This document shows, piece after piece, positions 5,600 to 59,968 of a stretch of DNA of 60,203 bases. A program made the translations under genes and the position numbers. Below the pieces are notes generated by a model that saw only the letters and a program-made list of their open reading frames with translations, was not told the origin of the DNA and searched no databases. Each line of letters starts with the position of its first letter. The stretch's first letter is position 1. Source of the DNA: Bacteroides sp. (lineage in GTDB: Bacteria > Bacteroidota > Bacteroidia > Bacteroidales > Bacteroidaceae); contig JAGATY010000082.1 of assembly GCA_017621035.1 (NCBI GenBank), positions 1 through 60,203 on the forward strand, in the 5' to 3' direction.

Positions 5600-5753
5600 A
5601 AATCAGTCAATAGTGAAACGTATATTTCTAAATTGCAAATGATAAATCAATAGATTGTAAATCGTAATTCAGTAGATTGTAAATTGTAATTCAATAAATA
5701 GTAAATCGTAAATCAATAAATTGTAAATAGTAAATCAATAAATTGCAAATAGC
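5600..5753. repeat. 22-bp tandem array, 7 units, A/T-rich
   Basis: Seven units start at 5600, 5622, 5644, 5666, 5688, 5710 and 5732, each exactly 22 bp apart. The consensus is roughly AAATCAATAAATTGTAAATA plus GT. The first two units are more diverged. Each unit holds a small palindrome CAAT-AA-ATTG. The array lies between nadK and the terminator of the oppositely oriented tRNA-Gln gene. Confidence 0.85.
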
Positions 5754-5773
5754 CAACTCTTTCTTGTAGGGCA

Positions 5774-5809
5774 TAAAAAAAGCAGGAAGTCGTTGGGAGA
5801 CTTCCTGCT
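5774..5809 (-). terminator. Rho-independent terminator of tRNA-Gln
   Basis: A perfect 11-bp stem, AGCAGGAAGTC (5781-5791) with GACTTCCTGCT (5799-5809), and a 7-nt loop. On the minus strand a run of T residues (5780-5774) follows. It starts 6 nt after the tRNA end. Confidence 0.9.
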
Positions 5810-5814
5810 GAGTG

Positions 5815-5885
5815 TTGGAGTACTAGGATTCGAACCTAGAATGACAGGACCAGAATCTGTAGTGTTACCATTACACCATACTCCA
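5815..5885 (-). tRNA. tRNA-Gln (anticodon CTG)
   Basis: On the minus strand the 71 nt fold as a tRNA. The 7-bp acceptor stem is TGGAGTA/TACTCCA with discriminator A, the D arm is GTGT/ACAC, and the anticodon loop TTCTGGT has CTG at 34-36. The T arm has loop TTCGAAT with stem CTAGG/CCTAG. The weak T1-A72 pair is normal for tRNA-Gln. The top of the anticodon stem has an A31-C39 mismatch; a TTG isoacceptor would normally have a T at 39. CCA is not encoded. Promoter and terminator are both visible, so this is a single-gene transcript. Confidence 0.93.
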
Positions 5886-5905
5886 ATTATTTCCTTTTTG
5901 CGCTG

Positions 5906-5936
5906 CAAAGTTACAAGGTTTTTAGAGAACCACAAA
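5906..5936 (-). promoter_or_regulatory. Promoter of tRNA-Gln
   Basis: The minus-strand -7 box TAACTTTG is at 5913-5906 and the -33 box TTTG at 5936-5933, with exactly 19 bp between, the canonical Bacteroides spacing. The tRNA 5' end is 21 nt downstream. Confidence 0.8.
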
Positions 5937-6091
5937 AGAAAAAATGTTTTTTTTTGATTTTATGCTTGTACTCGACCCATCGGAAGGAGAGAAAAACATT
6001 TCCAAGAAGGGGGAGCGGAAGAATGCTGAGATAAAATTGAGACTGCTTCTAAAAAAAAGCAAAAAAGCTAATAGTTTTCAGATTTTGCGTG

Positions 6092-6119
6092 TTTGATAGA
6101 AGAAAAGGACGTATCTTTG
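6092..6119 (+). promoter_or_regulatory. Promoter of rsfS-ftsH-cdsA
   Basis: TATCTTTG at 6112-6119 is a perfect -7 box 27 bp before the rsfS ATG. A TTTG at 6092-6095 is a possible -33 box, though the 16-bp spacing is short. Nothing else was recognised between 5937 and 6091. Confidence 0.6.
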
Positions 6120-6146
6120 CCAACTCTTTAAATATAATAATGTATA

Positions 6147-6506
6147 ATGAACGAGACAAAAGAACTGATTCAACATATCATAGATGGTATTCAGGAGAAG
6201 AAAGGCAGCAAGATTGTGGTGGCTGACCTTACTCAGATTGACGACACCATCTGTAACTATTTCATCATCTGCCAGGGGAATTCCCCCAGTCAAGTAACCA
6301 CCATTGTAGAATCTATCAGAGAATTTACCCGCCTGCATGCCAACAGCAAGCCGCTCGCCATCGACGGATTACGGAATGCCGAATGGGTTGCCATGGATTA
6401 TGCAGACATATTGGTACACGTATTCCTGCCCGAGCCACGGCAGTTTTATAATCTGGAACACTTGTGGGCAGATGCCAAACTAACCGAAATACCCGACCTG
6501 GACTAA
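6147..6506 (+). CDS. rsfS: Ribosome silencing factor RsfS
   Basis: RsfS (Iojap/DUF143 family) binds ribosomal protein L14 of the 50S subunit and blocks subunit joining when nutrients are scarce. 119 aa, normal length. Family features are KGSKIVVADLTQIDDTICNYFIICQGNS, compressed here as the VxDL and YFIICxGxS motifs, then the GLRNAEWVAMDYADILVHVF region (DGxxxAEWVxxDYxDxxVH). First gene before ftsH and cdsA, with a 6-bp gap to ftsH. Confidence 0.95.
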   Translation: MNETKELIQHIIDGIQEKKGSKIVVADLTQIDDTICNYFIICQGNSPSQVTTIVESIREFTRLHANSKPLAIDGLRNAEWVAMDYADILVHVFLPEPRQFYNLEHLWADAKLTEIPDLD

Positions 6507-6512
6507 ATTTGT

Positions 6513-8543
6513 ATGGAAAAGAAAAACGAAAAGCAACAAGCTCCCAAAGGGAATATGCCTAAGTTCAACCTCAGCTGGTTGTACATGATTATCGCCATGA
6601 TGCTAATCGGGCTGTGGATGACTAACGAAGCCGGTAACACCAGCAGAGAAATATCGTATGACGAGTTTCAGCAGCATGTGCGCAACGGATATATCAACAA
6701 AGTAATTGGTTATGATGACAACACGGTAGAGGCTTTCATCAAGCCTGAGCACGTGAAGGATGTATTCAAGAACGATTCAAACCGTGTTGGACGCTCTCCT
6801 TTCGTCATTACAGAGGCTCCGGCACGTGAGAACCTTGGTAATTTTCTGGAAAAGGAGAGAGAGCTGTCACACTTCGACGGTTCCATCAATTACAAGCGTA
6901 AGCAAAACTTTTGGGGTGCCTTGTTCTGGCAAATCTTCCCCATTGCCCTGATTATCGGTTTCTGGATATTCATCTCACGTCGCATGTCCGGCGGAGGAGG
7001 TGGCGGTGGCCTTGGTGGCGGCATCTTCAGTGTGGGCAAGTCTAAAGCTCAACTCTTTGAAAAGGGAGGTGCTACCCGAGTGACCTTTAAAGATGTTGCC
7101 GGACTGGCAGAGGCCAAACAGGAGGTGGAAGAGATTGTTGAGTTCTTGAAAGAGCCGCAGAAATATACCGACTTGGGTGGAAAGATTCCTAAGGGAGCCT
7201 TGCTGGTAGGCCCTCCGGGTACCGGTAAGACATTGTTGGCCAAGGCTGTAGCCGGAGAGGCCAATGTACCGTTCTTCTCACTGGCAGGTTCCGACTTTGT
7301 AGAGATGTTTGTGGGTGTGGGTGCCAGCCGTGTGCGCGACCTATTCCGACAAGCCAAAGAGAAAGCTCCTTGTATTATCTTCATCGACGAGATAGATGCC
7401 GTGGGTCGTGCCCGTGCCAAAGCGGCTGCGATGGGGGGAAATGACGAGCGCGAGAATACCTTGAACCAATTGCTGACCGAAATGGATGGTTTCGGCTCCA
7501 ACAGTGGTATCATCATTCTGGCAGCCACCAACCGAGTAGATGTGCTGGATAAGGCACTGTTGCGTGCCGGACGTTTCGATCGTCAGATTCACGTGGATTT
7601 GCCAGACCTGAATGAACGTAAAGAGGTGTTTGGTGTTCACCTGCGCCCCATCAAGATAGACAGCAGTGTAGAGATAGATTTGCTGGCTCGTCAGACCCCG
7701 GGTTTCTCGGGAGCCGATATTGCCAACGTCTGCAATGAAGCCGCACTGATTGCTGCCCGCCACGGGAAGAAGTATGTCAGCAAACAAGACTTCCTGGATG
7801 CGGTAGACCGTATTGTAGGAGGCTTGGAGAAGAAGACCAAGATTACCACTGAGGCTGAGCGTCGTTCCATTGCTATCCATGAAGCCGGTCACGCTAGCAT
7901 TTCCTGGCTGTTGGAGCATGCCAACCCGCTGATTAAAGTAACTATCGTTCCACGCGGACGGGCATTAGGTGCCGCTTGGTACCTGCCGGAGGAGCGACAA
8001 ATCACCACTAAAGAACAGATGCTGGACGAAATGTGCGCCACCCTGGGTGGACGTGCAGCAGAAGACCTTTTCCTGGGTCGTATCTCTACAGGGGCAATGA
8101 ATGACCTGGAGCGTGTCACCAAGCAGGCATACGGCATGACAGCCTACCTGGGTATGAGCGATGCATTGCCCAACCTCTGTTACTACAACAACGACGAGTA
8201 CTCTTTCAATCGCCCGTATAGTGAGAAGACAGCCGAACTGATTGATGCTGAGGTGAAGAAGATGGTCAACGAACAGTATGAGCGTGCCAAGCAGATTCTC
8301 TCCGACAACAAAGAGGGTCACAACCGACTGGCTCAGTTACTTATCGAGAAGGAGGTCATCTTTGCTGAAGACGTTGAAGCCATCTTTGGCCCTCGTCCGT
8401 GGGCATCACGTTCCGCCGAGGTAATGGATGCCAACAAGATTTCTGCCGAGCTGAAGAGAGCTGAGGAGCAGCAAGAAGAGCGTGCAGAAGAGACAGAGAA
8501 AGAGATCAAAGAGAAAGAAGAATCTAACGCAACCAAAGAATAA
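6513..8543 (+). CDS. ftsH: ATP-dependent zinc metalloprotease FtsH
   Basis: Membrane-anchored AAA+ protease that degrades misfolded membrane proteins and short-lived regulators. 676 aa. Membrane helices are at about 21-37 and 137-155 with a periplasmic domain between, then a Gly-rich linker (160-170). The AAA domain has Walker A GPPGTGKT (233-240), Walker B IIFIDE (288-293) and the second region of homology [18 protein letters not shown] (about 340-357). The zinc site HEAGH is at 456-460. The tail from about 650 is a Glu/Lys-rich helix ([18 protein letters not shown]), longer than in E. coli. Translated right after rsfS; cdsA starts 3 bp after its stop. Confidence 0.97.
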
Positions 8544-8546
8544 GCC

Positions 8547-9386
8547 ATGAAGAATTTTATCACACGTGCCATTACCGGCATTCTGTTTGTCGTTGTATTG
8601 GTGGGCTGTATCTTATACAACCCGCTCTCGTTTGGAGTACTGTTTACTCTTATCTGTGCCCTGAGCGTGCACGAGTTTGCCCACCTGGTGAATCAGAGCG
8701 GCAAAGTCTCCATTAACAAGACTGTTACAGCCCTGGGAGGTGCCTACCTCTTTCTGGCAGTGATGACCTACTGCATGCAGCAAGGCCCCGGCGCGCGCGT
8801 GTTCCTCCCCTACTTGGTGCTGTTACTCTACCTGATGATTGCAGAGCTTTATCTGAAGAAGGAGAACCCCATCGAGAACTGGGCTTTCAGCACACTGAGC
8901 CAGTTCTATGTAGCCTTGCCGTTTGCGTTGCTGAATGTACTGGCATTTCACTTCAACCCGACAGAAGGAACGGTAAGTTACAACCCCATCCTTCCGCTCT
9001 CCATCTTTGTATTCATTTGGTTGAGTGACACAGGCGCTTACTTGGTAGGCTCTCTGATTGGCAAGCACCGTCTGTTTGAGCGCATCTCCCCGAAGAAGTC
9101 TTGGGAAGGAAGCATCGGTGGAGCCGTTCTTTCCATAGCTTCCTCCTTTGCGTTTGCTCATCTCTTCCCCTTCTTGACTACTCCACAATGGGCAGGACTG
9201 GCAGCCGTAGTGGTGCTGTTTGGAACTTGGGGCGACCTGACTGAGTCACTGATGAAACGCCAGCTAGGCATTAAAGACTCCGGAAACATTCTCCCCGGTC
9301 ACGGCGGTATGCTGGACAGATTCGACAGTGCCCTCATGGCCATCCCCGCAGCTGTTGTCTATCTATATGTATTGACGCTGCTGTAA
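8547..9386 (+). CDS. cdsA: Phosphatidate cytidylyltransferase
   Basis: CdsA converts phosphatidic acid and CTP to CDP-diacylglycerol, precursor of the phospholipids. 279 aa with about seven to eight hydrophobic segments. The C-terminal signature is clear: SDTGAYLVGSLIGKH, then FERISPKKSWEGSIGG, then GDLTESLMKRQLGIKDSG and LPGHGGMLDRFDS, which contain the metal-binding Asp residues. Last gene of rsfS-ftsH-cdsA. Confidence 0.96.
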   Translation: MKNFITRAITGILFVVVLVGCILYNPLSFGVLFTLICALSVHEFAHLVNQSGKVSINKTVTALGGAYLFLAVMTYCMQQGPGARVFLPYLVLLLYLMIAELYLKKENPIENWAFSTLSQFYVALPFALLNVLAFHFNPTEGTVSYNPILPLSIFVFIWLSDTGAYLVGSLIGKHRLFERISPKKSWEGSIGGAVLSIASSFAFAHLFPFLTTPQWAGLAAVVVLFGTWGDLTESLMKRQLGIKDSGNILPGHGGMLDRFDSALMAIPAAVVYLYVLTLL

Positions 9387-9441
9387 GAATTGGCCAGAGA
9401 AATAAAGAAGTTTTCATTAGCCCAATCGGCATTATAGAGAA

Positions 9442-9981
9442 ATGAAAAAGATAGTAATATTTATTCTAGTAGTATTATCTGCTATTTATGCACAGGCTCA
9501 AACAGATAGCATAGGCGTTTACTCAGTCAGCAACGGTGTAATTACTAAAATTGAGGTTTTAAACTACAACCAAACTAAGATAAGTGGCGGGCTGAGAAGT
9601 AAAGCCAAGTTAGTGTTTGATAATGCAACCAGCGTAAACCGTGTTAGCAGCCCTGCAACTTTCCGTTTATATTTTGGCACACCATCTCCTTACGATGTTG
9701 CGAAATACTATATGTTTACACCTTCTTACTCTGCAAAAGATTTCAGCATAGGCAAATTTGAAGTTAAAAAGGGTAAGCGATATCTAACTACTGCAACAGT
9801 TTCTATTATAGGTTCTAAGGTTGGTGCTGACAAGGCAAAGGATGTAAATATTGAATATAGGCAATTACGAAATAATGTCTATGAGTTCACAATAACGGGG
9901 CCTGCCGGCGAATACTGTATCATGCCTATTATCAATGGCATAGGTGGATATACCGGTGTTTTTGATTTTACGTTAGAATGA
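9442..9981 (+). CDS. Secreted hypothetical protein
   Basis: Not recognised. 179 aa with an N-terminal signal peptide (MKKIVIFILVVLSAIYAQA, likely cleaved after AQA). The mature part is rich in Tyr, Ser, Thr and Val and probably beta-structured; there is no known motif and no membrane helix. Its base composition is clearly more A/T-rich than cdsA and lpxB on either side (codons such as ata, tta, aat are common). The stop overlaps the next gene start by 4 bp (ATGA), so the two form a pair. Possibly recently acquired. Confidence 0.75.
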   Translation: MKKIVIFILVVLSAIYAQAQTDSIGVYSVSNGVITKIEVLNYNQTKISGGLRSKAKLVFDNATSVNRVSSPATFRLYFGTPSPYDVAKYYMFTPSYSAKDFSIGKFEVKKGKRYLTTATVSIIGSKVGADKAKDVNIEYRQLRNNVYEFTITGPAGEYCIMPIINGIGGYTGVFDFTLE

Positions 9982-10457
9982 AAAAGATAGCATTCGTACT
10001 GTTTACTGTTCTTTCTCTGGTGTCGTGTTCCAAAGAGGAAAACAACATAACACCCACAGATGGACAATATGTGGGGTATGTTGAGTATAGCAACGATAAT
10101 AATGACTACAATACCACGTTTTGCTTGACATTAGAAAACGGGGAATGCACTGATTTTATAATCTATAACAGTGCAGAATACTTTAACTACTATAGGCCTG
10201 CCGACATTAGTACCAAAGGAAGTTATCCAAAGTACACGTACCGGATAAACGATTTTACGGTTCAAGCACAGTTTTCAGGTTTTGAGAGCTTTACAGCTAA
10301 CCTTTCCGGCACATTACGCACCCACAAAGACAATATGCCCACACTCATAGGTGAAGTGTACAAAAGTATAGCCGTAGAAGCCTCTAACGTACATTTTCAA
10401 TTAGACAATACACCATTGGATGCAAACGGGGACGGTTTGTTGGATAGTAAACAATAA
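9978..10457 (+). CDS. Hypothetical lipoprotein
   Basis: Not recognised by family. 159 aa with a lipoprotein signal (MKKIAFVLFTVLSLVSCSKE, lipobox LVSC), so it is probably anchored in a membrane facing the periplasm or the surface. The C-terminus holds DANGDGLLDS, a DxNxDG calcium-binding-like loop as in thrombospondin type 3 or EF-hand repeats, but only one. The body is rich in Asn, Tyr and Thr. A/T-rich like its partner at 9442-9981, with which it overlaps by 4 bp. Probably co-expressed and functionally linked, but the role is unknown. Confidence 0.75.
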   Translation: MKKIAFVLFTVLSLVSCSKEENNITPTDGQYVGYVEYSNDNNDYNTTFCLTLENGECTDFIIYNSAEYFNYYRPADISTKGSYPKYTYRINDFTVQAQFSGFESFTANLSGTLRTHKDNMPTLIGEVYKSIAVEASNVHFQLDNTPLDANGDGLLDSKQ

Positions 10458-10536
10458 CACATCCCTTCAGCAAATAAAGTTCTACTCACCGCAAGTCCTT
10501 AGCGCATAGGAATCTAATGCTCCATCGCCTACACAA

Positions 10537-10567
10537 ACAAGAAGAATGAAACACTTCTTGTGAGTTT
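10537..10567 (+). terminator. Possible terminator after the lipoprotein pair
   Basis: ACAAGAAG (10537-10544) pairs with CTTCTTGT (10554-10561) over a 9-nt loop, followed by GAGTTTTAG, a short T-run. It lies between convergent genes (lipoprotein pair and lpxB). Confidence 0.45.
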
Positions 10568-10649
10568 TAGTAATAAACGAAAGTAGAGCTAAGCTTTTGG
10601 AAGAAGATATTGTCAAACTCTTTTCTTCACCTTATTCTCCATATTTCTT

Positions 10650-11786: not shown

Positions 11787-11814
11787 GAGCAATAAAATGT
11801 GGAGAGAGGGGGGA

Positions 11815-13230: not shown

Positions 13231-13380
13231 AGAATAGGATGCAGACATAAAATCAAGACAGACCAAGTTTCAATTTAAAAGCTCCGTGTCTTTGTGTCTC
13301 TGTGTTCCAATCAAAACCATTCCAAGACAACTACTTACAGAAAACACTCGGCAGACTAGCGTTCAACAGGCGGCAGACTC

Positions 13381-13411
13381 TTGTTTCTGTGCCGGAAGTT
13401 TTGTACCTTTG
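13381..13411 (+). promoter_or_regulatory. Promoter of the HU-like gene
   Basis: TACCTTTG at 13404-13411 is a perfect -7 box, with TTGT about 19 bp upstream at 13381-13384 as a plausible -33. Transcription would start near 13417, so the 22-bp palindrome array at 13415-13477 would lie at the very 5' end of a leader of about 185 nt. The DNA before it (13231-13380) holds only short GTGTCTTT/GTGTCTCT-like repeats. Confidence 0.6.
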
Positions 13412-13414
13412 CTG

Positions 13415-13477
13415 CACAAGATGCCAACTTGTGCTACACAAGATGCCATCTTGTGCAACATGAGATGCCATCTTGTG
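13415..13477. repeat. 22-bp palindrome array, 3 units (CACAAGATG family)
   Basis: Three 19-nt units start at 13415, 13437 and 13459, exactly 22 bp apart, with 3-nt spacers CTA and CAA. The middle unit is CACAAGATG-C-CATCTTGTG, a perfect palindrome around one base. The first has one change and the third two. The same unit recurs with the same period at 31066-31128. As RNA each unit could form an 8-bp hairpin with a 3-nt loop. Confidence 0.9.
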
Positions 13478-13602
13478 CAGGAGCAGAACCTGTGTGGAGG
13501 CAAGGCCGGCTTATTTTGCCCCCTCACCGGAATAAGAGATTTGCTCAGGCCGACCAAGTGGCATCCGGCTATTCTACTAACTTTTTTAAAATTTATTGCA
13601 TT

Positions 13603-14307: not shown

Positions 14308-15072
14308 ATGGGAAAGATTATTGCAATGGCAAACCAAAAAGGAGGCGTGGGGAAAACCACTACAACCATCAATCTGGCCGCCTCGCTTGCCACTTTGGAG
14401 AAAAAAGTATTAGTCGTGGATGCCGACCCACAGGCCAATGCCTCGTCGGGACTTGGTGTGGACATCAAGCAGGCTGCTTGCACCATCTACGAATGCCTTA
14501 TCAATCAGGCCGACGTGCGCGAGGCTTTGCACGACACCGAGCTTGAAACACTGAAGGTCATCTCCTCACACATCAACCTGGTGGGCGCCGAAATAGAGAT
14601 GCTTAACCTGAAGAACAGGGAAAAGATTCTGAAAGGAGTGCTGGCACCTTTGAAGGAAGAGTTCGACTATATCCTGATTGACTGCTCTCCCTCGCTTGGC
14701 CTGATTACCGTTAACGCACTGACGGCAGCAGACTCGGTGATTATTCCCGTACAAGCTGAGTACTTTGCACTGGAAGGTATCAGTAAACTGCTGAACACCA
14801 TTAAAATCATTAAGACAAAGCTCAACCCGAAGCTGGAGATTGAAGGCTTCTTGCTGACCATGTTCGACTCTCGTCTGCGTCAGGCCAACCAGATTTACGA
14901 CGAGGTGAAACGCCACTTCCAGGAGCTGGTATTCAAGACAGTAATCCAACGCAACGTGAAGTTGAGTGAGGCTCCCAGCTACGGCCTGCCCACCATTCTG
15001 TATGATGCAGACTCCTCCGGAGCACGCAACCACATGGCACTGGCCAAGGAAATATTGGAAAGAAACAACTGA
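14308..15072 (+). CDS. parA: Chromosome partition ATPase ParA/Soj
   Basis: ParA-family P-loop ATPase that drives segregation of chromosome origins with ParB. 254 aa. A deviant Walker A, KGGVGKTTTT, lies at about 11-20, preceded by MANQ. DADPQANASSG (switch) and YILIDCSPSLGLITVNAL (Walker B) follow. The short length without an N-terminal helix-turn-helix is typical of chromosomal Soj rather than plasmid P1-type ParA. parB follows after 11 bp. Confidence 0.95.
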   Translation: MGKIIAMANQKGGVGKTTTTINLAASLATLEKKVLVVDADPQANASSGLGVDIKQAACTIYECLINQADVREALHDTELETLKVISSHINLVGAEIEMLNLKNREKILKGVLAPLKEEFDYILIDCSPSLGLITVNALTAADSVIIPVQAEYFALEGISKLLNTIKIIKTKLNPKLEIEGFLLTMFDSRLRQANQIYDEVKRHFQELVFKTVIQRNVKLSEAPSYGLPTILYDADSSGARNHMALAKEILERNN

Positions 15073-15083: not shown

Positions 15084-15971
15084 ATGGCACCAAAAAGAAA
15101 CGCATTAGGGCGAGGACTCGACGCATTGTTATCCATGGATGACGTGCAGACCGAAGGCTCCAGCTCCATCAACGAAATAGAACTGGCAAAAATCAAAGCC
15201 AACCCCAACCAGCCACGTCGGGAGTTTGCACCCGAAGCTCTGCAAGAGCTGGCCGACAGCATTCGCGAAATAGGCATCATCCAACCCATCACCCTGCGCA
15301 AACTAAGCGATGATGAGTATCAGATTATTGCCGGCGAACGTCGCTTCCGTGCTTCTCAACTGGCAGGCTTAGAGACCATTCCGGCCTACATCCGCACCGC
15401 CGATGATGAGAACGTGATGGAGATGGCGCTCATCGAAAACATACAACGTGAGGATCTGAACGCCGTGGAAATTGCCCTGGCCTATCAGCACCTGATGGAG
15501 GCTTACAACCTGACGCAAGAGCGGTTGAGCGAGCGTGTGGGAAAGAAGCGTGTCACCATCACCAACTACCTGCGTCTGCTGAAGTTGCCGGCACCCATTC
15601 AGATGGGGCTTCAGAACAAGTTGATTGACATGGGACACGCCCGTGCACTTGTCACCCTGAACGATCCCAAGCTGCAGGTAAAACTCTTTGAAGAGACCGT
15701 GCAACACCACTACTCCGTGCGTAAGATAGAAGAGCTGGTGAAAGAGCTTCAAGAGGGCAAGAGCGTTAAAAGCGGCAGTCAAACACTAACCCCGAAACGC
15801 AGCCGGATGCCCGAGGAGTTTAACATGCTGAAGCAACAACTCTCCGGTTTCTTCAACACCAAAGTACAACTTACCTGCTCCGAAAAGGGAAAGGGTAAAA
15901 TCAGCATTCCTTTCAATAACGAAGAAGAACTAGAGCGCATCATCGGCATACTTGATACGCTGAAGAAGTAA
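15084..15971 (+). CDS. parB: Chromosome partition protein ParB/Spo0J
   Basis: ParB-family CTPase and parS-binding protein, 295 aa. The N-terminal RNALGRGLDALLS is the ParA-interacting segment. The ParB/Srx nuclease-like domain has NPNQPRREF and IAGERRFRASQLAG (GERRxRA, the CTP-binding box), then ENIQREDLNAVEIA. A helix-turn-helix follows (LTQERLSERVGKKRVTITNY, given as LSERVGKKRVTITNYLRLL), then a C-terminal dimerisation domain. Its stop overlaps the next ATG (TAATG). Confidence 0.96.
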   Translation: MAPKRNALGRGLDALLSMDDVQTEGSSSINEIELAKIKANPNQPRREFAPEALQELADSIREIGIIQPITLRKLSDDEYQIIAGERRFRASQLAGLETIPAYIRTADDENVMEMALIENIQREDLNAVEIALAYQHLMEAYNLTQERLSERVGKKRVTITNYLRLLKLPAPIQMGLQNKLIDMGHARALVTLNDPKLQVKLFEETVQHHYSVRKIEELVKELQEGKSVKSGSQTLTPKRSRMPEEFNMLKQQLSGFFNTKVQLTCSEKGKGKISIPFNNEEELERIIGILDTLKK

Positions 15972-26001: not shown

Positions 26002-26140
26002 GAAGCAAATATAGAGAAAAGTGTCGAGAAACTGTTTTGTTTTGCTCTAAAAAGCGATTCTTCAGCTTCCTTGAAGTCCCTTTTCGTCCTTCTCCACCTC
26101 TCTTACTCATCACACAAATCCAAAAAGGAAGAGAGAAAAA

Positions 26141-26224
26141 ACACCGACACTTACAGCCGTAACGCCGACACTTACAGCCGTAACACTCACTCTTTTTTCT
26201 GTAACCCTCACTGTTTTCAGCACA
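26141..26224. repeat. 21-bp tandem array, 4 units
   Basis: Units start at 26141, 26162, 26183 and 26204. The first two differ at one base (ACRCCGACACTTACAGCCGT plus A), and the last two are diverged but keep ACxCTCACT and the spacing. The core TTACAGCCGTAA is a near palindrome. The rest of the 26002-26315 gap holds the terminator at 26245-26287 and nothing else recognised. Confidence 0.75.
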
Positions 26225-31040: not shown

Positions 31041-31065
31041 TTCCTCCGCACTAGTACCTAATCTG

Positions 31066-31128
31066 CACAAGATGGCATCTTGTGTTGCATAAGATGGCAT
31101 CTTGTGCAGCATAAGATGCCAACTTGTG
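31066..31128. repeat. 22-bp palindrome array, 3 units (second copy of CACAAGATG family)
   Basis: Units start at 31066, 31088 and 31110, exactly 22 bp apart, with 3-nt spacers TTG and CAG. The first is CACAAGATG-G-CATCTTGTG, a perfect palindrome; the others carry one or two changes. It is the same unit and same period as 13415-13477, 17.6 kb away. Confidence 0.9.
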
Positions 31129-31134
31129 CATGAC

Positions 31135-31244
31135 TTCTTTTAATGGGAAGGGCGAAAAGGTCTAATGGGAGAGGTGGGAAGATTAAAAGGGAAAACGGAA
31201 AGGTTAAAGGGGAAAGGTGAGGAGGTTAAAGGGGAAAGGAGGAA
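31135..31244. repeat. 22-bp purine-rich array, about 5 units
   Basis: Units start at 31135, 31157, 31179, 31201 and 31223. The last two share AGGTTAAAGGGGAAAGG exactly; earlier ones are progressively diverged. Almost all purine on the plus strand and not palindromic. It begins right after the palindrome array and keeps the same 22-bp period. The remaining 170 bp to tamB shows only TTACTTTG at 31378-31385 as a near -7 box. Confidence 0.75.
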
Positions 31245-31415
31245 AGGAAGCTGAGTGCCGGTAGCAGAATGTAAGTGGGGAGAGGATTTTATCCCTGTTT
31301 CTGCCGTTTTAGTCGTGAATTTTGGTCGCGAAAGCTAGAAATCTCTTGCAGAGGAACTAAATGTCGGCAGAAATTGTTTACTTTGTGACAAATTAGACGC
31401 AACTGATTCTCGCTC

Positions 31416-39471: not shown

Positions 39472-39581
39472 CTCAAGTCACTATTTTGGCGCTCCCGATG
39501 TACTACTTTGAGCACCCCGATGTAGTACATTGACACTCCCGATTCTGTACATTGACACCCTCAATCTACAGCTACCTACAA
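39472..39581. repeat. 22-bp palindrome-bearing array, about 5 units
   Basis: Units start at 39472, 39494, 39516, 39538 and 39560. The three middle ones are clear (CCCGATGTAGTACATTGACA plus CT); the outer two are diverged. The core ATGTA-G-TACAT is a perfect palindrome around a single base in the third unit. The 160 bp that follow (39582-39745) contain nothing recognised. Confidence 0.8.
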
Positions 39582-39745: not shown

Positions 39746-39788
39746 AAATCGTAAATCGTAAATCGTAAATTGCTAAATCGTAAATCCC
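39746..39788. repeat. 7-bp repeats AAATCGT
   Basis: AAATCGT at 39746, 39753 and 39760, then AAATTGC, then after one extra base AAATCGT and AAATCCC. It ends 12 bp before the -7 box of the ABC-F gene. Confidence 0.75.
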
Positions 39789-39828: not shown

Positions 39829-41778
39829 ATGATTTCCGTAGAAGGACTGAAAGTAGAATTTAATGCAACGCCCCTGTTCGAGGACGTTTCCTACGTTATA
39901 AACAAGAAAGACCGCATTGCCCTGGTGGGCAAGAACGGAGCCGGAAAGTCGACCATGCTAAAGATTCTGGCCGGACTGCAGCAACCCACCGAGGGCGTGG
40001 TGGCCGTGCCTCGCGAATGCACCATCGGCTACCTGCCGCAGGTGATGAAGCTGGCCGACAGCCGCACGGTGATGCAGGAGGCCGAGCTGGCCTTTGAGCA
40101 TATCTTTGAGATGCAGGCCGACATCGAGCGGATGAACCGCGAACTGGCCGAGCGCACCGACTACGAGAGCGAGGAATACCAGAAACTTATCGACCGCTTC
40201 ACGCACGAGAACGAACGCTTCCTGATGATGGGCGGCACCAACTATCAGGCCGAACTGGAGCGGACGCTTCAGGGACTGGGCTTCAGCCGCGCCGACTTCG
40301 ACCGCCCCACGAGCGAGTTCTCCGGCGGATGGCGTATGCGCATCGAGCTGGCCAAGCTGCTGTTGCGCCGTCCCGACGTGCTGCTGCTGGACGAGCCTAC
40401 CAACCACCTCGACATCGAGAGCATCCAGTGGCTGGAGCAGTTCCTGGCCACCCGGGCCAACGCCGTGGTACTGGTGAGCCACGACCGGGCCTTCCTGAAC
40501 AACGTCACGACCCGCACCATCGAAATATCCTGCGGACGCATCTACGACTATAAAGTGAAGTACGACGAGTTCGTCGTCCTCCGCAAGGAGAGGCGCGAGC
40601 AGCAGTTGCGTGCCTACGAGAACCAGCAGAAACAGATAGAAGACACGGAAGCCTTCATCGAACGGTTCCGCTACAAGGCGTCGAAAGCCATCCAAGTGCA
40701 GAGCCGCGTCAAGCAGTTGGAGAAGCTGGAGCGCATCGAGGTGGACGAGGAAGACAACTCCACCCTGCGCCTGAAGTTCACCTGCTCAAGCCGCAGCGGA
40801 AACTATCCCGTCATCTGCGACGAGGTGGGCAAGAGCTATGGCCCGCACAACGTCTTCCACAACGTCAACCTCACCATCAACCGGGGCGAGAAGGTGGCCT
40901 TCGTGGGCAAGAACGGCGAGGGAAAGTCCACGCTCGTGAAGTGCATCATGGGCGAGATAACCGACTATACCGGTCGGCTGACGCTGAGCCACAACGTGCA
41001 GATAGGCTACTTCGCGCAGAACCAGGCACAGCTGCTGGACGAATCGCTGACCGTGTTCGACACCATCGACCGCGTGGCCGTGGGCGACATCCGTCTGAAG
41101 ATACGCGACATCCTCGGCGCTTTCATGTTTGGCGGCGAAGCGTCGGACAAGAAGGTGAAAGTCCTGTCGGGAGGTGAGCGTACCCGCCTGGCCATGATAA
41201 AGCTGCTGCTGGAACCCGTGAACTTCCTTATCCTCGACGAGCCTACCAACCACCTTGATATGCGTTCAAAGGACGTGCTGAAGGAAGCCATCCGCGACTT
41301 CGACGGCACGGTGATTATCGTGAGCCACGACCGTGACTTCCTCGACGGGCTGGCCACCAAGGTCTACGAGTTTGGCGGAGGCAAGGTGAAGGAACACCTC
41401 TGCGGCATCTACGAGTTCCTGCAAAAGAAGCAGATAGACAACCTAAGTGAACTATCCTCATCCCCCGCCCTTTCAGCCTCGCCCACTGCCGGCAAACAAG
41501 CAATTACCGAAACCACTTCTGACGCCAAGCTGACCTACGAGCAGCAAAAAGAGCTGAACAAGCGACTGAAGAAAGCAGAGAAGCGGGTGGCTGACTGCGA
41601 GGCAGAAATTGAGCAAACCGAGGCAGCCATCGCCTTACTGGAAGCACAAATGGCTACACCGGAAGGTGCTTCCGACATGACCCTCTACGAGCGGCACGGC
41701 AAGCTGAAGCAGCAACTGGATCGTGCTGTGGAGGAGTGGGAAGCGGCTTCGATGGAGCTGGAAGAGTTGCAAGGATGA
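39829..41778 (+). CDS. ABC-F family ATPase (ribosome-associated)
   Basis: ABC-F protein, 649 aa, two ABC ATPase domains and no membrane helices. Walker A is GKNGAGKST (34-42) and, in the second domain, GKNGEGKST (about 361). Signature motifs are SGGWRMRIELAKLLLRRPD and LSGGERTRLAMIKLL; both are followed by LLLDEPTNHLD-like Walker B boxes. An interdomain linker with many Arg/Glu (about 235-300) reaches the ribosome in this family. A Lys/Glu coiled coil is at about 565-645. The housekeeping Uup/EttA type is most likely; antibiotic-resistance ABC-F cannot be excluded. The ATPase part is visibly richer in G+C (up to about 70% in some 60-bp lines) than the tail and the neighbours. Confidence 0.92.
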   Translation: MISVEGLKVEFNATPLFEDVSYVINKKDRIALVGKNGAGKSTMLKILAGLQQPTEGVVAVPRECTIGYLPQVMKLADSRTVMQEAELAFEHIFEMQADIERMNRELAERTDYESEEYQKLIDRFTHENERFLMMGGTNYQAELERTLQGLGFSRADFDRPTSEFSGGWRMRIELAKLLLRRPDVLLLDEPTNHLDIESIQWLEQFLATRANAVVLVSHDRAFLNNVTTRTIEISCGRIYDYKVKYDEFVVLRKERREQQLRAYENQQKQIEDTEAFIERFRYKASKAIQVQSRVKQLEKLERIEVDEEDNSTLRLKFTCSSRSGNYPVICDEVGKSYGPHNVFHNVNLTINRGEKVAFVGKNGEGKSTLVKCIMGEITDYTGRLTLSHNVQIGYFAQNQAQLLDESLTVFDTIDRVAVGDIRLKIRDILGAFMFGGEASDKKVKVLSGGERTRLAMIKLLLEPVNFLILDEPTNHLDMRSKDVLKEAIRDFDGTVIIVSHDRDFLDGLATKVYEFGGGKVKEHLCGIYEFLQKKQIDNLSELSSSPALSASPTAGKQAITETTSDAKLTYEQQKELNKRLKKAEKRVADCEAEIEQTEAAIALLEAQMATPEGASDMTLYERHGKLKQQLDRAVEEWEAASMELEELQG

Positions 41779-46240: not shown

Positions 46241-46326
46241 TAATTATGAATTTTGAATTTTGAATTATGAATAGGCTCACCTTCCTATCGTTAATTCAAA
46301 ATTCATAATTCAAAATTCACAATTAA
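46241..46326. repeat. A/T-rich hairpin of 7-bp repeats between purH and mreB
   Basis: The left arm (46241-46275) is a run of ATTATGA/ATTTTGA heptads. The right arm (46284-46326) is a run of AATTCAA/AATTCAT/AATTCAC heptads, largely complementary to the left. ATAGG/CCTAT closes the top. It starts 4 nt after the purH stop and ends 5 nt before the mreB ATG, so it is the whole intergenic region. It may act as purH terminator, mreB leader, or both. Confidence 0.75.
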
Positions 46327-48697: not shown

Positions 48698-48713
48698 CCC
48701 CTCCCCCAAAAAT

Positions 48714-48755
48714 CATAATTCATAATACATAATTCACAATTCATAATTCATAACA
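48714..48755. repeat. 7-bp repeats CATAATT before mrdA
   Basis: Six heptads start at 48714, 48721, 48728, 48735, 48742 and 48749 (CATAATT, CATAATA, CATAATT, CACAATT, CATAATT, CATAACA). They end 5 bp before the GTG start of mrdA. Confidence 0.85.
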
Positions 48756-48759
48756 AAGG

Positions 48760-52072: not shown

Positions 52073-52153
52073 GGCGTTTTATAGCCTACGGTCACGTCTT
52101 TCAGACCATCAATCAAACCGACGTTAGATTAAATAATTCTTTACACCAAAGAA

Positions 52154-52241
52154 AATGAGCCTCATTGACGATGCAAAGGAGGCTCATTTAGCACATAAAG
52201 GAGGCTCATTTAGCATGTCAATGAGCCTCCTTTATACTATC
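52154..52241. repeat. 22-bp palindrome array, 4 units
   Basis: Units start at 52154, 52176, 52198 and 52220. The cores are AATGAG-C-CTCATT (perfect, one central base), AAGGAGGCTCATT twice, then AATGAGCCTCCTT, so sites face alternate ways. The array lies between convergent rodA and ansA, 82 bp after the rodA stop and 70 bp before the ansA stop. Confidence 0.88.
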
Positions 52242-52310
52242 AATCCGCAATCGATTATATTTGTCTGATTATCAATATTCTACTAATTTTAGTAAAATAG
52301 TAATCATTCT

Positions 52311-53679: not shown

Positions 53680-53830
53680 CAGCAATCATATTTATTAGGT
53701 AAAACTCAGCAAGGCTTCCGGTGTGAAGCGACTCTCGGGGAGACATCTCCTTGTCCTCCACCCCTCTGCTGCCTGCCGCCGGTGCGGCTGTTCTACCTCA
53801 TTTGTTTTGTAAACTAAAAAACTCACGATA

Positions 53831-56263: not shown

Positions 56264-56267
56264 TCTT

Positions 56268-56351
56268 AATGAAGAATGAAGAATAAAGAATGAAGAATTA
56301 CCTTTCGGGTTTCCGCATTCTTAATTCTTCATTCTTAATTCTTCATTCATC
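56268..56351. repeat. 7-bp repeat hairpin between thrA and apgM
   Basis: The left arm has heptads AATGAAG, AATGAAG, AATAAAG, AATGAAG from 56268. The right arm has CATTCTT, AATTCTT, CATTCTT, AATTCTT, CATTCAT from 56316, complementary to the left. The loop is about 20 nt including CTTTCGGGTTTCC. The right arm ends one base before the apgM ATG. Confidence 0.85.
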
Positions 56352-57566
56352 ATGAAGCATATCATCATATTGGGTGACGGCATGGCCGACTGGGCTGTTT
56401 CCTCCTTAGGGGGTAAGACGTTGCTACAAGCCGCAAATACGCCTTACATGGACAAACTGGCTCGCATGGGTCGCAATGGCCGGCTGATTACCGTAGCCCC
56501 GGGATTCCATCCGGGCAGTGAGGTAGCCAACATGTCTGTACTTGGCTACAATCTTCCGAAAGTGTATGAGGGCAGAGGACCGCTGGAAGCAGCCAGCATA
56601 GGTGTGGAGCTGCAACCGGGCGAACTGGCCTTACGCTGTAACATCATCTGTGTGGAAGACGAAAAGATTAAGAACCACTCTGCCGGCCACATCACTACCG
56701 AAGAGGCCGACGTGCTGGTGAAGTATCTGCAGAAAGAACTGGGCGATGAGCGCGTGCGTTTCCATACCGGTGTGCAATATCGTCATCTGCTGGTGATTAA
56801 AGGAGGTGACAAACGCATTGCCTGCACGCCTCCCCACGACGTGCCGCTACAACCGTTCCGCCCGCTGCTAGTGAAGCCACAGGTTCCCGAAGCAGAGGAG
56901 ACGGCCAACCTCATCAACAACCTGATTCTTCGTTCTCAAGAGTTACTGAAGAGCCACCCGCTCAACCTGAAGCGCATGGCCGAAGGCAAAGACCCGGCCA
57001 ACAGCATCTGGCCTTGGGGTGGTGGCTACAGGCCACAGATGGAGCTGCTCTCTGAGAAGTTTCCGCAAGTGAAACGGGGAGCTGTCATCTCTGCCGTAGA
57101 CCTGATACGTGGTATTGGTCATTATGCCGGACTTCGCAGGTTGGAGGTAGAGGGCGCAACCGGTCTTTACGACACCAATTATGAGAACAAGGTGCAAGCT
57201 GCCCTGGAGGCACTGAAGACAGACGACTTTGTCTATCTGCACATTGAGGCCAGTGACGAAGCCGGGCACGAGGGAAACATTCCGCTGAAGATGCAAACCA
57301 TCGAGAACCTGGACAAGCGGGCAGTTGGCCCTATCTATGAGGCAGTCAAGGATTGGCCGGAGCCGGTAGCCATCGCTGTCTTGCCCGACCACCCCACCCC
57401 ATGTGCCTACCGCACACACACGGCAGAGCCGGTTCCTTTCTTCATCTGGTACCCCGGCATTGAACCGGATGAGGTGGAGACCTTTGACGAAGTGGCCGCC
57501 TGCAACGGTTCCTACGGTCTGCTGAAAGAGGATCAATTCATTAACGCATTTATGAAAGACAGCTAA
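56352..57566 (+). CDS. ApgM-type protein; probable homoserine kinase
   Basis: Alkaline-phosphatase-superfamily protein of the archaeal-type cofactor-independent phosphoglycerate mutase family, 404 aa. IILGDGMADW carries the first metal-binding Asp. SEVANMSVLGYN holds the Ser that is phosphorylated in relatives, VYEGRGPLEAASIGV and YLHIEASDEAGHEGN follow, and AVLPDHPTPCAYRTHTAEPV carries the last metal site. It lies between thrA and thrC, where thrB is expected; no GHMP-type ThrB is in the window. This context argues that it phosphorylates homoserine rather than isomerising phosphoglycerate. Family membership is firm; the specific reaction is inferred. Confidence 0.88.
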   Translation: MKHIIILGDGMADWAVSSLGGKTLLQAANTPYMDKLARMGRNGRLITVAPGFHPGSEVANMSVLGYNLPKVYEGRGPLEAASIGVELQPGELALRCNIICVEDEKIKNHSAGHITTEEADVLVKYLQKELGDERVRFHTGVQYRHLLVIKGGDKRIACTPPHDVPLQPFRPLLVKPQVPEAEETANLINNLILRSQELLKSHPLNLKRMAEGKDPANSIWPWGGGYRPQMELLSEKFPQVKRGAVISAVDLIRGIGHYAGLRRLEVEGATGLYDTNYENKVQAALEALKTDDFVYLHIEASDEAGHEGNIPLKMQTIENLDKRAVGPIYEAVKDWPEPVAIAVLPDHPTPCAYRTHTAEPVPFFIWYPGIEPDEVETFDEVAACNGSYGLLKEDQFINAFMKDS

Positions 57567-57586
57567 CAGCACCAACTTTCACAAAT

Positions 57587-57628
57587 CATAATTCATAATT
57601 CACAATTCACAATTCATAATTCAACATG
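57587..57628. repeat. 7-bp repeats CATAATT running into the thrC start
   Basis: Heptads start at 57587, 57594, 57601, 57608, 57615 and 57622 (CATAATT, CATAATT, CACAATT, CACAATT, CATAATT, CAACATG). The last one includes the thrC ATG. Nearly the same motif as at 48714-48755. Confidence 0.85.
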
Positions 57629-58933
57629 AACTACTACAGTACCAACCGCCAAGCCCCTGAAGCCAGCCTGGAAGAGGCTGTTGTGAAAGGCTTGGCTTCC
57701 GATAAGGGTTTATTCATGCCCTACACCATCAAACCTCTTCCGCAATCCTTCTATGACAACATCGAGAATCTTATTTTTCAAGAGATTGCCTACCAAGTGG
57801 CTGATGCCTTCTTTGGTGAAGATGTGCCGGCCGACACCCTGAAACAGATTGTCTACGACACCCTCTCTTTCGACGTGCCGCTGGTACCTGTCAGCAAAGA
57901 CATCTACTCGCTGGAACTGTTCCACGGGCCTACCCTGGCATTTAAAGATGTAGGTGGCCGCTTCATGGCTCGCCTGCTCGGTTACTTCATCCGCAAAGAG
58001 GGCAAGAAGCAGGTCAATGTGCTGGTAGCCACCTCCGGCGACACTGGTAGTGCGGTAGCCAACGGTTTCCTCGGGGTGGAAGGTATCCACGTCTATGTGC
58101 TCTATCCCAAAGGAAAGGTGAGCGAGATACAAGAGAAGCAATTCACCACCCTGGGGCGCAACATCACAGCACTGGAGGTGGAGGGCACCTTCGACGACTG
58201 TCAGGCTCTGGTGAAGTCTGCCTTTATGGATGAAGAGCTGAACCAACACCTGTTGCTCACCAGCGCCAACTCCATCAATGTAGCCCGCTTCCTGCCGCAA
58301 GCCTTCTACTACTTCTATGCCTATGCCCAGTGGAAGAAGCTGCATACCGACAACAGGTCACTCGTGTTCTGCGTACCCAGCGGTAACTTTGGCAACATCA
58401 CGGCCGGACTGTTTGGCAAACGGATGGGACTGCCTGCCGCTCGCTTCATTGCAGCCAACAACCGAAACGACATCTTCTTCCAGTACCTCCGTACCGGCAT
58501 CTATGCCCCACGTCCCTCAGTGGCCACCATTGCCAACGCCATGGATGTGGGAGCACCCAGTAACTTTGCCCGTGTGCTGGATCTCTACGGGAACAGTCAT
58601 GCCGCCATCTGCTCCGACATCAGTGGCGCGACCTACACCGACGAGCAGATTGCCGACACCATGCGCCAGGTGTGGAAAGAACACCAATACCTGCTCGACC
58701 CACACGGAGCCTGTGGTTATCGCGCCCAGCAAGAGGGCTTACAGCCGGGCGAGAGTGGTATCTTCCTGGAGACAGCCCATCCGGCCAAGTTCAAAGATAC
58801 CGTAGAAGGCATCATCGGCAGCCCCGTGCAGATTCCGGAAAAGCTGCAGGCATTCATGCAAGGCGAGAAACAATCCGTCCCCATGAGCAAGCAGTTTGCC
58901 GACTTCAAACAGTACCTGCTGACGAAGGCCTGA
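57626..58933 (+). CDS. thrC: Threonine synthase
   Basis: PLP enzyme converting O-phosphohomoserine to threonine, 435 aa. The N-terminal YYSTNRQAPEASLEEAVVKG, FHGPTLAFKDVGGRFMARLL with the PLP-binding Lys (about residue 108), VATSGDTGSAVANGF with the PLP phosphate contacts, and VPSGNFGNITAGLFGKRMGL are typical of the ThrC family. Last gene of thrA-apgM-thrC; a strong terminator follows. Confidence 0.96.
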   Translation: MNYYSTNRQAPEASLEEAVVKGLASDKGLFMPYTIKPLPQSFYDNIENLIFQEIAYQVADAFFGEDVPADTLKQIVYDTLSFDVPLVPVSKDIYSLELFHGPTLAFKDVGGRFMARLLGYFIRKEGKKQVNVLVATSGDTGSAVANGFLGVEGIHVYVLYPKGKVSEIQEKQFTTLGRNITALEVEGTFDDCQALVKSAFMDEELNQHLLLTSANSINVARFLPQAFYYFYAYAQWKKLHTDNRSLVFCVPSGNFGNITAGLFGKRMGLPAARFIAANNRNDIFFQYLRTGIYAPRPSVATIANAMDVGAPSNFARVLDLYGNSHAAICSDISGATYTDEQIADTMRQVWKEHQYLLDPHGACGYRAQQEGLQPGESGIFLETAHPAKFKDTVEGIIGSPVQIPEKLQAFMQGEKQSVPMSKQFADFKQYLLTKA

Positions 58934-58973
58934 TGCAGTTAGCAATTTGACACTTTGCATATCAAACCGCCTG

Positions 58974-59034
58974 AGAATCGCGTATTTCCAACCAACCTGA
59001 CCCTTGGTAGAAAATACGCGATTCTGTTTTTACT
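58974..59034 (+). terminator. Terminator of the threonine operon
   Basis: A perfect 14-bp stem AGAATCGCGTATTT (58974-58987)/AAATACGCGATTCT (59012-59025), extended by CCAA/TTGG, then GTTTTTACT. Confidence 0.92.
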
Positions 59035-59150
59035 ATCTCCCTATCATACAAACAGATAGCGCATTATTTAACTAAAATCGGCTCAAAAACAGAATCTGTT
59101 TTGCGGCCTTTTAAAGCCCCCAGACGCTCATTACGCCTTTCCCGTTTCTT

Positions 59151-59252
59151 CCACACAAGTGTGGCATCTACTCCACACAAGCACGGCAGTTGCTCCACAC
59201 TTGTGTGGAAAAAATCCCGCACTTGTGTGGAGCAACCACCGTACAAGCATTT
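59151..59252. repeat. 22-bp palindrome array, 5 units (CCACACAAGTGTGG)
   Basis: Units start at 59151, 59173, 59195, 59217 and 59239. The cores are CCACACAAGTGTGG, CCACACAAGCACGG, CCACACTTGTGTGG, CCGCACTTGTGTGG and a decayed CCGTACAAGC. The first and third are perfect palindromes of each other with AA or TT at the centre; spacers are 8 nt. A separate palindrome AAAACAGA-A-TCTGTTTT is at 59085-59101. The 270 bp that follow (59253-59523) show nothing recognised. Confidence 0.9.
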
Positions 59253-59523
59253 TCCGCATAAACATCCGGTTTCATCCTCACTTTTCACCCGTATTCTGAA
59301 TCAATATTCACTTTCCGGAAGCTTTTCTTTGCTAGTTTGGCCAATTCTAAAAAGAGCATGTCAGCAAAACCCGACTTTTGCTGACACGCGGATAGGGGAA
59401 TAGGGAGAAATAGGTTACCTTGTGACACAGATATCATTCACCGTACCCAGGAACTAGCCAACCACTCTTTTAAATAAGCTTTCACAAGAAATCAATGCTT
59501 TCCTTATCAATACTTTTTTGCTC

Positions 59524-59673
59524 TAATGCACATAAAATGCAACTTTTGCACTTTCTTAATGCACATAAAGTGCAAGAAATTAAGAATCCTAATGCATATA
59601 AAGTGCAACTTTTACATTTCTCTAATGCACATAAAATGCAAGAAATGGAGAGGTCTAATGCACATAAAGTGCA
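59524..59673. repeat. 33-bp array, 5 units (TAATGCACATAAARTGCA)
   Basis: An 18-nt core starts at 59524, 59557, 59590, 59623 and 59656, exactly 33 bp apart. Two cores contain the hairpin TGCAC-ATAAA-GTGCA. The 15-nt spacers alternate between an ACTTTT.. type and an AGAAA.. type, so a 66-bp superperiod is visible. Because 33 is divisible by 3, both strands stay open and read as 11-residue repeats. Confidence 0.9.
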
Positions 59674-59801
59674 GAAAACTGAGGTAACAGAAATAAGCAG
59701 AAGCAATAGAAAGCATTCCCCCGAAAGAGTCCGGGATTTCCCCAAATCCCGAATATCATCACTTTTCTCCAACTTTATAACTCTCTTTCTCCAACATCTC
59801 T

Positions 59802-59809
59802 TATCTTTG
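59802..59809 (+). promoter_or_regulatory. -7 box upstream of a small open frame
   Basis: TATCTTTG, a perfect -7 box, 24 bp before ATG 59834. No convincing -33 box. Confidence 0.45.
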
Positions 59810-59833
59810 CCTTCGCGATAGGCAGGAAACAAT

Positions 59834-59968
59834 ATGAAAACCACACCCCTATCAAAGCAAAGCTATACCAACGCCGTATCAAGGCCGTACCAACGCCGTA
59901 CCAAGTCCGTTCCTATAGAAACGGAGAAGAAGCTGGGAGGACAAGGAGGGGATATGGCGGGAATATAG
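59834..59968 (+). CDS. Possible 44-residue small protein
   Basis: The open frame starts MKTTPLSKQSYTNAVSRPYQ and runs 44 codons to TAG at 59966. It is basic, with no membrane segment or motif known to me. Its middle is encoded by the 11-bp repeat at 59866-59909. The only support is the promoter-like TATCTTTG at the right distance; it could be non-coding. Confidence 0.3.
   Translation: MKTTPLSKQSYTNAVSRPYQRRTKSVPIETEKKLGGQGGDMAGI
59866..59909. repeat. 11-bp repeats TACCAACGCCG
   Basis: Four units start at 59866, 59877, 59888 and 59899: TACCAACGCCG, TATCAAGGCCG, TACCAACGCCG, TACCAAGTCCG. Alternate units are most alike, so a 22-bp period is also visible. Confidence 0.75.

Follow-up and report, generated by a model that had tools for sequence, protein, structure and literature searches.

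Several described systems come close to the subject of this work, a set of short intergenic tandem arrays with a common 22-bp period that are dispersed over a 60,203-nt stretch of Bacteroides sp. DNA (assembly GCA_017621035.1, contig JAGATY010000082.1, positions 1 to 60,203; the window hereafter means this whole stretch) and over the rest of its 2.64-Mb genome. Plasmid iterons are direct repeats about two helical turns apart, with an initiator bound on one face of the DNA; the arrays considered here differ in being chromosomal, dispersed and partly palindromic. Bacterial tandem repeats of constant size (20-23 nt) and unrelated sequence, with several families per species, have been reported (Subirana and Messeguer, PMC8161180), and the portions of that paper drawn on here remark on the two helical turns, propose a role in the nucleoid or in RNA, and leave the mechanism unsettled, calling it an enigma. 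BrickBuilt of Porphyromonas gingivalis, as presented in the parts of its description cited here, is a dispersed intergenic element in which a tandem 23-nt repeat lies between a leader and a tail, with 19 copies and 1 to 22.8 repeat copies per array; 22- and 41-nt repeats in the same species are also mentioned there (PMC4596501). Finally, in the relevant excerpts on Bordetella promoters, phosphorylated BvgA (BvgA~P) occupies one face of the DNA as head-to-head dimers with centres 22 bp apart, and a strong inverted heptad is regarded as the nucleus from which binding extends cooperatively to weak sites, which are difficult to predict from the sequence (PMC7250471).

An earlier note on the window had held that no named system has the properties of these arrays, a claim that the constant-size, variable-sequence repeats and the 23-nt BrickBuilt element, both in print, contradict. 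The arrays resemble the former in their non-coding units of 20-23 nt (66 of 68 intergenic arrays of period 15-30 in the survey described below) and in the coexistence of several families of the same size and unrelated sequence, four of which (F1 to F4) occur in this one genome. They differ in anatomy, as three-unit cores, mirrored in-register wings, unlike ends and the conservation of dyads as against linkers are not described in the portions of PMC8161180 cited, and the strings ‘Bacteroides’, ‘Bacteroidetes’ and ‘palindrom-’ are absent from its main text. The 2021 search by the same authors was set, according to those portions, to at least four repeats per array, and F1 has three units at 37 of its 39 loci; a search of that kind, whose threshold is a cut-off and not a biological definition, could miss most F1 cores. 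P. gingivalis belongs to the order Bacteroidales. Like BrickBuilt, the arrays have unlike flanks (28 of 37 F1 arrays and 7 of 9 F2 loci), whereas the unit is 22 and not 23 nt long and the number of units is far narrower than the 1 to 22.8 given in the excerpts on BrickBuilt; the terminal inverted repeat (TIR) words of BrickBuilt, sought with at most one mismatch in 396 kb of this genome, gave one match for GAGACCTTTGCA and none for CCGAAAGGTCTC. The BvgA~P arrays, as excerpted, are paralleled by the 22-bp spacing of dyads, the conserved half-sites, the free linkers (in 17 of 18 palindromic arrays) and the in-register wings; unlike that Bordetella regulator, which acts at few promoters and to one side, the present arrays have mirrored wings, lie at many loci and show no visible promoter preference. 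This likeness is one of geometry. A literature search for an account in Bacteroides, which did not cover a 2020 J Bacteriol repeat study, did not find the anatomy of these arrays in print. Constant-size repeats of variable sequence are hence already known, and what appears to be new is the anatomy of core, in-register wings and unlike ends. We propose, at a probability of roughly 0.5, that the arrays are helically phased nucleation-plus-spreading binding sites for DNA-binding proteins, dispersed partly as elements resembling miniature inverted-repeat transposable elements (MITEs). That a single genome has four families, and that the anatomy is clear in two, makes the enigma testable: the proposal predicts a filament of 22-bp pitch, sensitivity to insertions of half a turn, and a specific protein. 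Such a protein, if found, would represent a nucleoid or regulatory architecture of a new kind, in bacteria that form a dominant group in the gut.

The period lock is pronounced. Across 176 intergenic stretches (46.4 kb) of the window and of four further contigs from its genome, with gene boundaries from a crude longest-open-reading-frame (ORF) caller, exact 8-mer matches at a lag of 22 number 333, as against 1.1 ± 1.1 in 10 dinucleotide-preserving shuffles, while lags of 20, 23, 44 and 66 give 4, 2, 88 and 24, respectively. Once the arrays are masked, the 22-bp signal that is left is weak and no stronger than that at lags 8 and 11; separate peaks at 7, 14 and 21 are at least partly due to arrays of heptamers. 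The survey of relatives covered 1.5 Mb from nine genomes (eight of one genus and one of the same order, 60-400 kb per genome), and 35 of its 68 arrays come from the window's own genome. The period is 22 in 55 of the 68, 23 in five, 21 in five, and 20, 15 and 28 in one each, with the best-scoring period kept per place, arrays with a shorter inner period (self-match >0.62 at lag 1-10) dropped, and periods within 15-30 alone counted (41-, 44- and 46-bp arrays exist). The unit of the window's genome is 22 nt, and some relatives have 23-nt units. In one relative (G021), the 100 kb sampled contained no array of period 15-30 at the survey threshold, and a lower threshold gave one array of period 18 and three of 44. 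The sharp peak at 22 over shuffled controls that, according to the earlier note, would support its reading is present in this genome, and a period of 22 predominates in the sampled set of nine. As a separate observation, two intergenic arrays of 41-bp and 46-bp units, with 5-6 copies each, lie at C51:59618-59879 (L053) and C51:68830-69067 (L054).

The main family, F1, gives the clearest view of the underlying anatomy. Its unit, CACAAGATG-N-CATCTTGTG, has 103 matches at ≤2 mismatches in the genome, where the reversed pattern used as a control has 0. F1 comprises 39 loci, with exactly three units and both gaps of 22 bp at 37; the two others, excluded from the tests of wings, ends and core pairs, have two units in one case and, in the other, only one, which begins at base 143 of its contig. 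Chains in this and the other families were extended at the family step only, so that other gaps would not join; a gapped BLAST of the F1 core, free of this bias, recovered matches of 65-71 bases at nearly all F1 loci, with shorter ones at C51:31153 and C34:140 and an extra 19-base match at C26:46214, outside the 39 loci. The cores are about 90% identical. The two F1 arrays of the window, at 13415 and 31066, do share a unit, as had been pointed out before, though not merely as a pair, since they are two of the 39 loci of one family. Elsewhere, the metagenome-assembled genome Bacteroides sp. C.10_2 has four F1 loci, found by a pattern demanding two adjacent units, each with three units at 22 bp. 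A BLAST of the core over 60 other genomes (36 of the same genus) matched only G007, with one locus of three units at 22 bp, and, weakly, G027, where the match holds no recognisable unit; the family is therefore narrow in range.

The 22-bp register continues past the three palindromes on both sides of the F1 cores. Wing statistics rest on 65 wings, from 33 three-unit loci less one cut wing, with the near-duplicates C62:43666, C18:1852, C26:66957 and C64:4964 dropped. Within wings, the match at lag 22 is 0.358 as against a median of 0.266; wings of different arrays match best at offsets of 0, ±22, ±44 and ±66, with 31% identity over a background of 26%; and left and right wings match at 0.312 when one is inverted but at no more than 0.261 on the same strand. 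The information content drops from 0.40 bits per position in unit -2 to 0.04 in unit -7, and in a leave-one-out phase test units -2 to -7 are exactly in register in 54, 54, 39, 27, 15 and 9 of the 65 wings, where 3.0 are expected, with 0 and 1 wings off by one in units -2 and -3. This combination of near-random letters and exact phase is the strongest sign that the spacing is selected or imposed. Directly flanking the core are two kinds of unit, read toward it: P (CACnnGTACC) and Q (CATTAnAA). One of each is found in 28 of 37 arrays, three are Q/Q, one (13415) is P/P and five are unclear, and an F1 site hence has a direction. This direction is without bias relative to local GC skew (agreement in 16/31) or gene direction (10/21).

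Within the window, Tandem Repeats Finder (TRF) reports 22-bp arrays at 5629-5750, 13410-13478, 31063-31129, 39480-39543, 52153-52234 and 59150-59200, and an ungapped lag-22 scan reports arrays at 5629-5752, 31064-31130, 31141-31239, 39480-39565, 52153-52244 and 59858-59913; the scan omits 13410, which mechanical ORFs overlap, and 59150, which falls below its score, though five units are readable in register at 59150-59252. These results uphold most of the seven exact 22-bp arrays listed earlier, as well as their intergenic placement, which holds by the crude ORF calls, the ORFs spanning 13415 being mechanical. They also agree with the periods of 33 and 21 previously assigned at 59524 and 26141. 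Three assignments change: 31135-31244, taken for an array of its own, continues the register of the 31066 array as its right wing; 5600-5753 does show a period of 22 but as a compound of heptamers (7+7+8), like the other 7-bp arrays of the window, with which it probably belongs; and the 11-bp array at 59866, correctly read as such, is not isolated but part of a dispersed 11/22-bp family. The features are as follows.

13349-13414: left wing of the 13415 core, with in-register units starting CGGCAGACT, CGGCAGACT and CGGAAGTTT at 13349, 13371 and 13393.
13415-13477: F1 core, three CACAAGATG-N-CATCTTGTG units at 13415, 13437 and 13459, 22 bp apart.
13478-13590: right wing of the 13415 core; it contains a P-type unit, which reads CACAGGTTC in the direction of the core.
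31044-31065: P-type flanking unit (CGCACTAGTACC...) of the 31066 core.
31066-31128: F1 core, three palindromic units at 31066, 31088 and 31110.
31129-31285: Q-type unit and degenerate, purine-rich right wing of the 31066 core in the same 22-bp register (31141-31239 from the lag scan, the remainder read by eye in register).
39480-39565: 22-bp array of about four units (ACTACTTTGACACTCCCGATGT), from TRF and the lag scan.
52153-52244: 22-bp array of four palindromic units (AAATGAG-C-CTCATTT) with variable linkers, from TRF and the lag scan.
59150-59252: 22-bp array of about five units based on TCCACACAAG / CTTGTGTGGA.
59858-59913, minus strand: F4 array, five consecutive 11-bp units of the GGTACGGCGTT type.
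59523-59677: 33/66-bp array (a multiple of 11) with units TAATGCACATAAARTGCA, from TRF.
5629-5752: 22-bp array of 7+7+8 heptamers (TAAATTG TAAATCG TAAATCAA), to which TRF also gives a period of 7.
26140-26186: 21-bp array of 2.2 copies, from TRF.

At 52153-52244, conservation is 0.90 in paired columns versus 0.58 in the others. Units that by eye resemble those of the 59150 array are found at C39:67876 and in a long array at C42:20764. The 39480-39565 array lies upstream of an ABC-transporter ATPase-like gene at 39829, which we infer to be of the ABC-F type.

Three further families of this genome, unrelated in sequence, also repeat at steps of 22 or 11 bp. F3 (GGTCGCCGAGGGTC, ≤1 mismatch) has 50 matches at 19 places (1 for the reversed control) and forms 21 chains, of which 11 have three units, five two, three four and two one; its linkers vary in letters but not in length, and its flanks are conserved for about one unit only. 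At two loci, C57:15608-15670 (L187) and C86:7874-7936 (L192), the F3 units flip orientation midway to give two opposed halves. F4 has an 11-bp step and 18 loci with at least three units, including the 59866 array of the window, with no match for the reversed control. F2 (AAGAAAGSCTTTCTT) has nine loci (the reversed control has 1 match on each strand), at seven of which one end, A, is recognised, and those seven show unlike conserved ends; CTCATCC / GGATGAG wings can be read by eye 22 bp apart. In the raw lists, neighbouring same-strand matches of F3 and of F2 are 22 or 44 bp apart. That spacing rather than sequence is what the arrays have in common, as the earlier note argued, is thus supported by the 22 bp shared among unrelated unit families in this genome and its relatives, and by wings that are near-random and still keep register.

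Palindromic arrays show what is held constant within the unit. Of 18 strongly palindromic arrays outside F1 that were long enough for the comparison, 17 show higher conservation in paired columns than in the rest and one shows no difference (0.887 versus 0.703; Wilcoxon p 3e-4). In such arrays the dyads are conserved, the linkers free and the spacing fixed. Under the nucleation-plus-spreading proposal, a core of exactly three near-perfect palindromes in the main family would nucleate head-to-head dimers, one per 22 bp, that is, two helical turns with one monomer per turn, all on one face. Binding would then spread cooperatively into the degenerate, outward-pointing wing units of the same register, about five on each side, to give a nucleoprotein site of about 300 bp. 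Cooperativity of this kind would need spacing more than letters, so that the letters could change and be replaced from one family or species to the next; arrays may grow by in-phase duplication of units and disperse by copying, sometimes within MITE-like elements. The role is likely to be local chromosome organisation or insulation, not the regulation of one kind of gene. Among 100 intergenic gaps of at least 150 bp (51 codirectional, 27 divergent and 22 convergent), 25 carry arrays (15, 6 and 4, respectively), with no visible preference for an orientation. A wider and more tentative version, which we consider possible but less likely than not, has the arrays as a genus-wide class of chromosomal nucleation-and-spreading sites, with fast-changing, unrelated core palindromes and mirror-image degenerate wings held strictly to a 22-bp register; nucleoid proteins whose specificity changes might form a filament of about 300 bp on these sites at dozens of loci, helical phase being selected and not sequence.

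A number of observations weigh against this proposal. No binding protein or candidate gene was identified, and it is hard to see how one protein would recognise four families with unrelated units. A palindromic consensus is present at p<0.05 in only 21 of 66 arrays of 20-24 bp (nine at p<0.01), and the tested arrays of F3 and F4 are not palindromic. The P/Q polarity of 28 of the 37 F1 arrays is not predicted by a simple symmetric site. Positions, too, are not conserved: the F1 positions of this genome are not common to C.10_2, and the loci of C.10_2, G007 and G027 do not lie beside the genes of the window genome's arrays, comparisons giving only weak paralogue and array-spanning matches. The 31066 array lies upstream of tamB, and only 6 of 29 orthologous tamB gaps (that of L098 having a masked stretch there) contain 22-bp arrays, with an unrelated unit; a conserved position upstream of tamB was accordingly rejected, 6/29 being close to the 25/100 of gaps in the own genome. 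The tamB array of G001 is extra DNA absent from five aligned relatives that are 68-78% identical in the region. Lastly, the presence of three F1 copies in an element with TIRs, two of them with target duplications, may reflect selfish dispersal.

This last point underlies the main rival, which we consider doubtful but possible: that the arrays are minisatellite-bearing, MITE-like selfish elements of the BrickBuilt type devoid of host function, spread by transposition or ectopic recombination, with the 22-bp unit reflecting their origin, for example, slippage on protein-wrapped DNA. Three F1 copies (C62:22777, C62:43666 and C18:1852) are 92-96% identical along a stretch of about 370 bp and unrelated beyond it. 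This element is bounded by a 24-bp inverted repeat (ACGTCAGTTCGRTAGATGGTCTGA), one end of which has decayed in two copies, and two of the three show readable 7-bp duplications (TAACCTT and TAAGTCA); TIR and target duplication are present at C18:1852, present with one end decayed at C62:22777 and decayed at C62:43666. The arrays are therefore not the independent one-offs they had first seemed, several belonging to dispersed families. The unlike ends of F2 and the P/Q ends of F1, which resemble the leader and tail of BrickBuilt, the near-constant unit number of F1 and the positions that differ between species also fit such an element, as does the mosaic-fashion sharing of wing pieces among other F1 arrays, which suggests recombination between copies. 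Yet no TIR with target duplication was seen at the majority of the remaining 36 F1 loci, and the terminal repeat is clear near only 3 of the 39 arrays; it hence explains some of the F1 dispersal but not most. A doubtful fourth case, C42:44661, has one end at 19/24, not common to its near-duplicate C26:66957, and two candidate bearers were rejected, C50:5973 as a weak match and C48:27762 because the repeat there belongs to a neighbouring element. Nor would a neutral element explain cores of about 90% identity beside near-random, in-register wings, or a spacing of 22 bp in unrelated families of several species.

The terminal repeat has a distribution of its own, with 24 matches in the genome at ≤3 mismatches (0 for the reversed control), and its commonest form is found in 0 of the 60 other genomes. 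Around half of its places belong to another element, which is rich in hairpins, and in 6 of the 24 rows the inverse end lies some 233 bases off; this other element, of about 257 bp, carries the same ACGTCAGTTCG... terminal repeat and is seen at C60:24033-24289 (L135) and also at L127, L129, L133 and L134. In the window, a copy of the repeat with 3 mismatches lies at 52101-52124, about 30 bp before the 52153 array and pointing away from it. A phage origin of F1 was rejected, as an exact pattern scan of IMG/VR returned two contigs with one palindrome each, which seem to be near-identical stretches in opposite orientation.

The earlier note had offered two options, phased binding of a dimeric protein and a copying mechanism with a fixed step, and of these the former fits better. 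A copier whose enzyme or template adds units in 22-nt steps would account for a period that is fixed whatever the sequence and for the identity of some adjacent units (the first two at L145, and the C42:20764 array). We regard it as improbable, given that most of the palindromic arrays tested keep their dyads while linkers of constant length differ between units, that unit number is narrow (three at 37 of 39 F1 loci and in 11 of 21 F3 chains), and that RAYT, the sole enzyme sought, was not found.

Slightly less probable again is that the arrays act as RNA or single-stranded DNA, as hairpin arrays (terminators, RNA stabilisers or protein sponges) or as cruciforms. Their units are palindromic, and core plus flanks fold strongly (z -8.2 and -4.9), as any array of palindromes would; two of the four C.10_2 arrays have, by eye, long sequence-specific inverted flanks. 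Changes in the F1 cores are one-sided in 111 of 114 cases and two-sided in 3. The one-sided changes comprise 57 G-U pairs and 54 mismatches on a reference strand chosen with the reference carrying such a T, and 12 and 99 on the other strand. Mirror pairing in the F1 wings, scored without the three near-duplicates C62:43666, C18:1852 and C26:66957, is at or below the column expectation (0.447 versus 0.524 at d 41-55). The scarcity of two-sided changes together with this lack of excess mirror pairing argues against selection for hairpins or cruciforms. The absence of a visible preference in transcription orientation points the same way, as does a search of the window against Rfam at gathering score, where tRNA is the sole family and none falls at the arrays; an exact 22-bp pitch would, moreover, be unneeded for RNA hairpins. 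As to REP/BIME/REPIN elements, which are likewise high-copy, dispersed intergenic palindromes, movement by a RAYT transposase is very improbable, since the 91%-complete genome has no match to Y1_Tnp (PF01797), found in 5 of 14 control genomes, and the arrays instead have a fixed 22-bp pitch with wings.

Some further observations concern the placement of the arrays. F1 loci within a contig are separated by 11 intervals of 8.4-30.6 kb (coefficient of variation 0.31), more even than random placement (p 0.0005 and 0.0012 in two tests, the second of which omitted some 100 kb belonging to five contigs; for the minimum distance, p 0.010 and 0.014), with clustering of intervals at p 0.056 and ordinary counts per contig (p 0.48); these statistics are post hoc and come from a fragmented assembly with several arrays near contig ends, and the evenness is a hint only. 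The 13415 array lies directly upstream of an HU-HIG gene (in a stretch read from 13657), followed by a parA-like gene (14308-15072) and parB (15084-15971), a neighbourhood that, for one of 39 loci, is possibly due to chance. Arrays of 7-bp units (AATTCAA, TCATAAT, TTCACAA and others) occur in the window at 39746-39786, 46242-46324, 48713-48753, 56268-56353 and 57578-57623, where they sit between ORFs, some of them directly before an ORF start.

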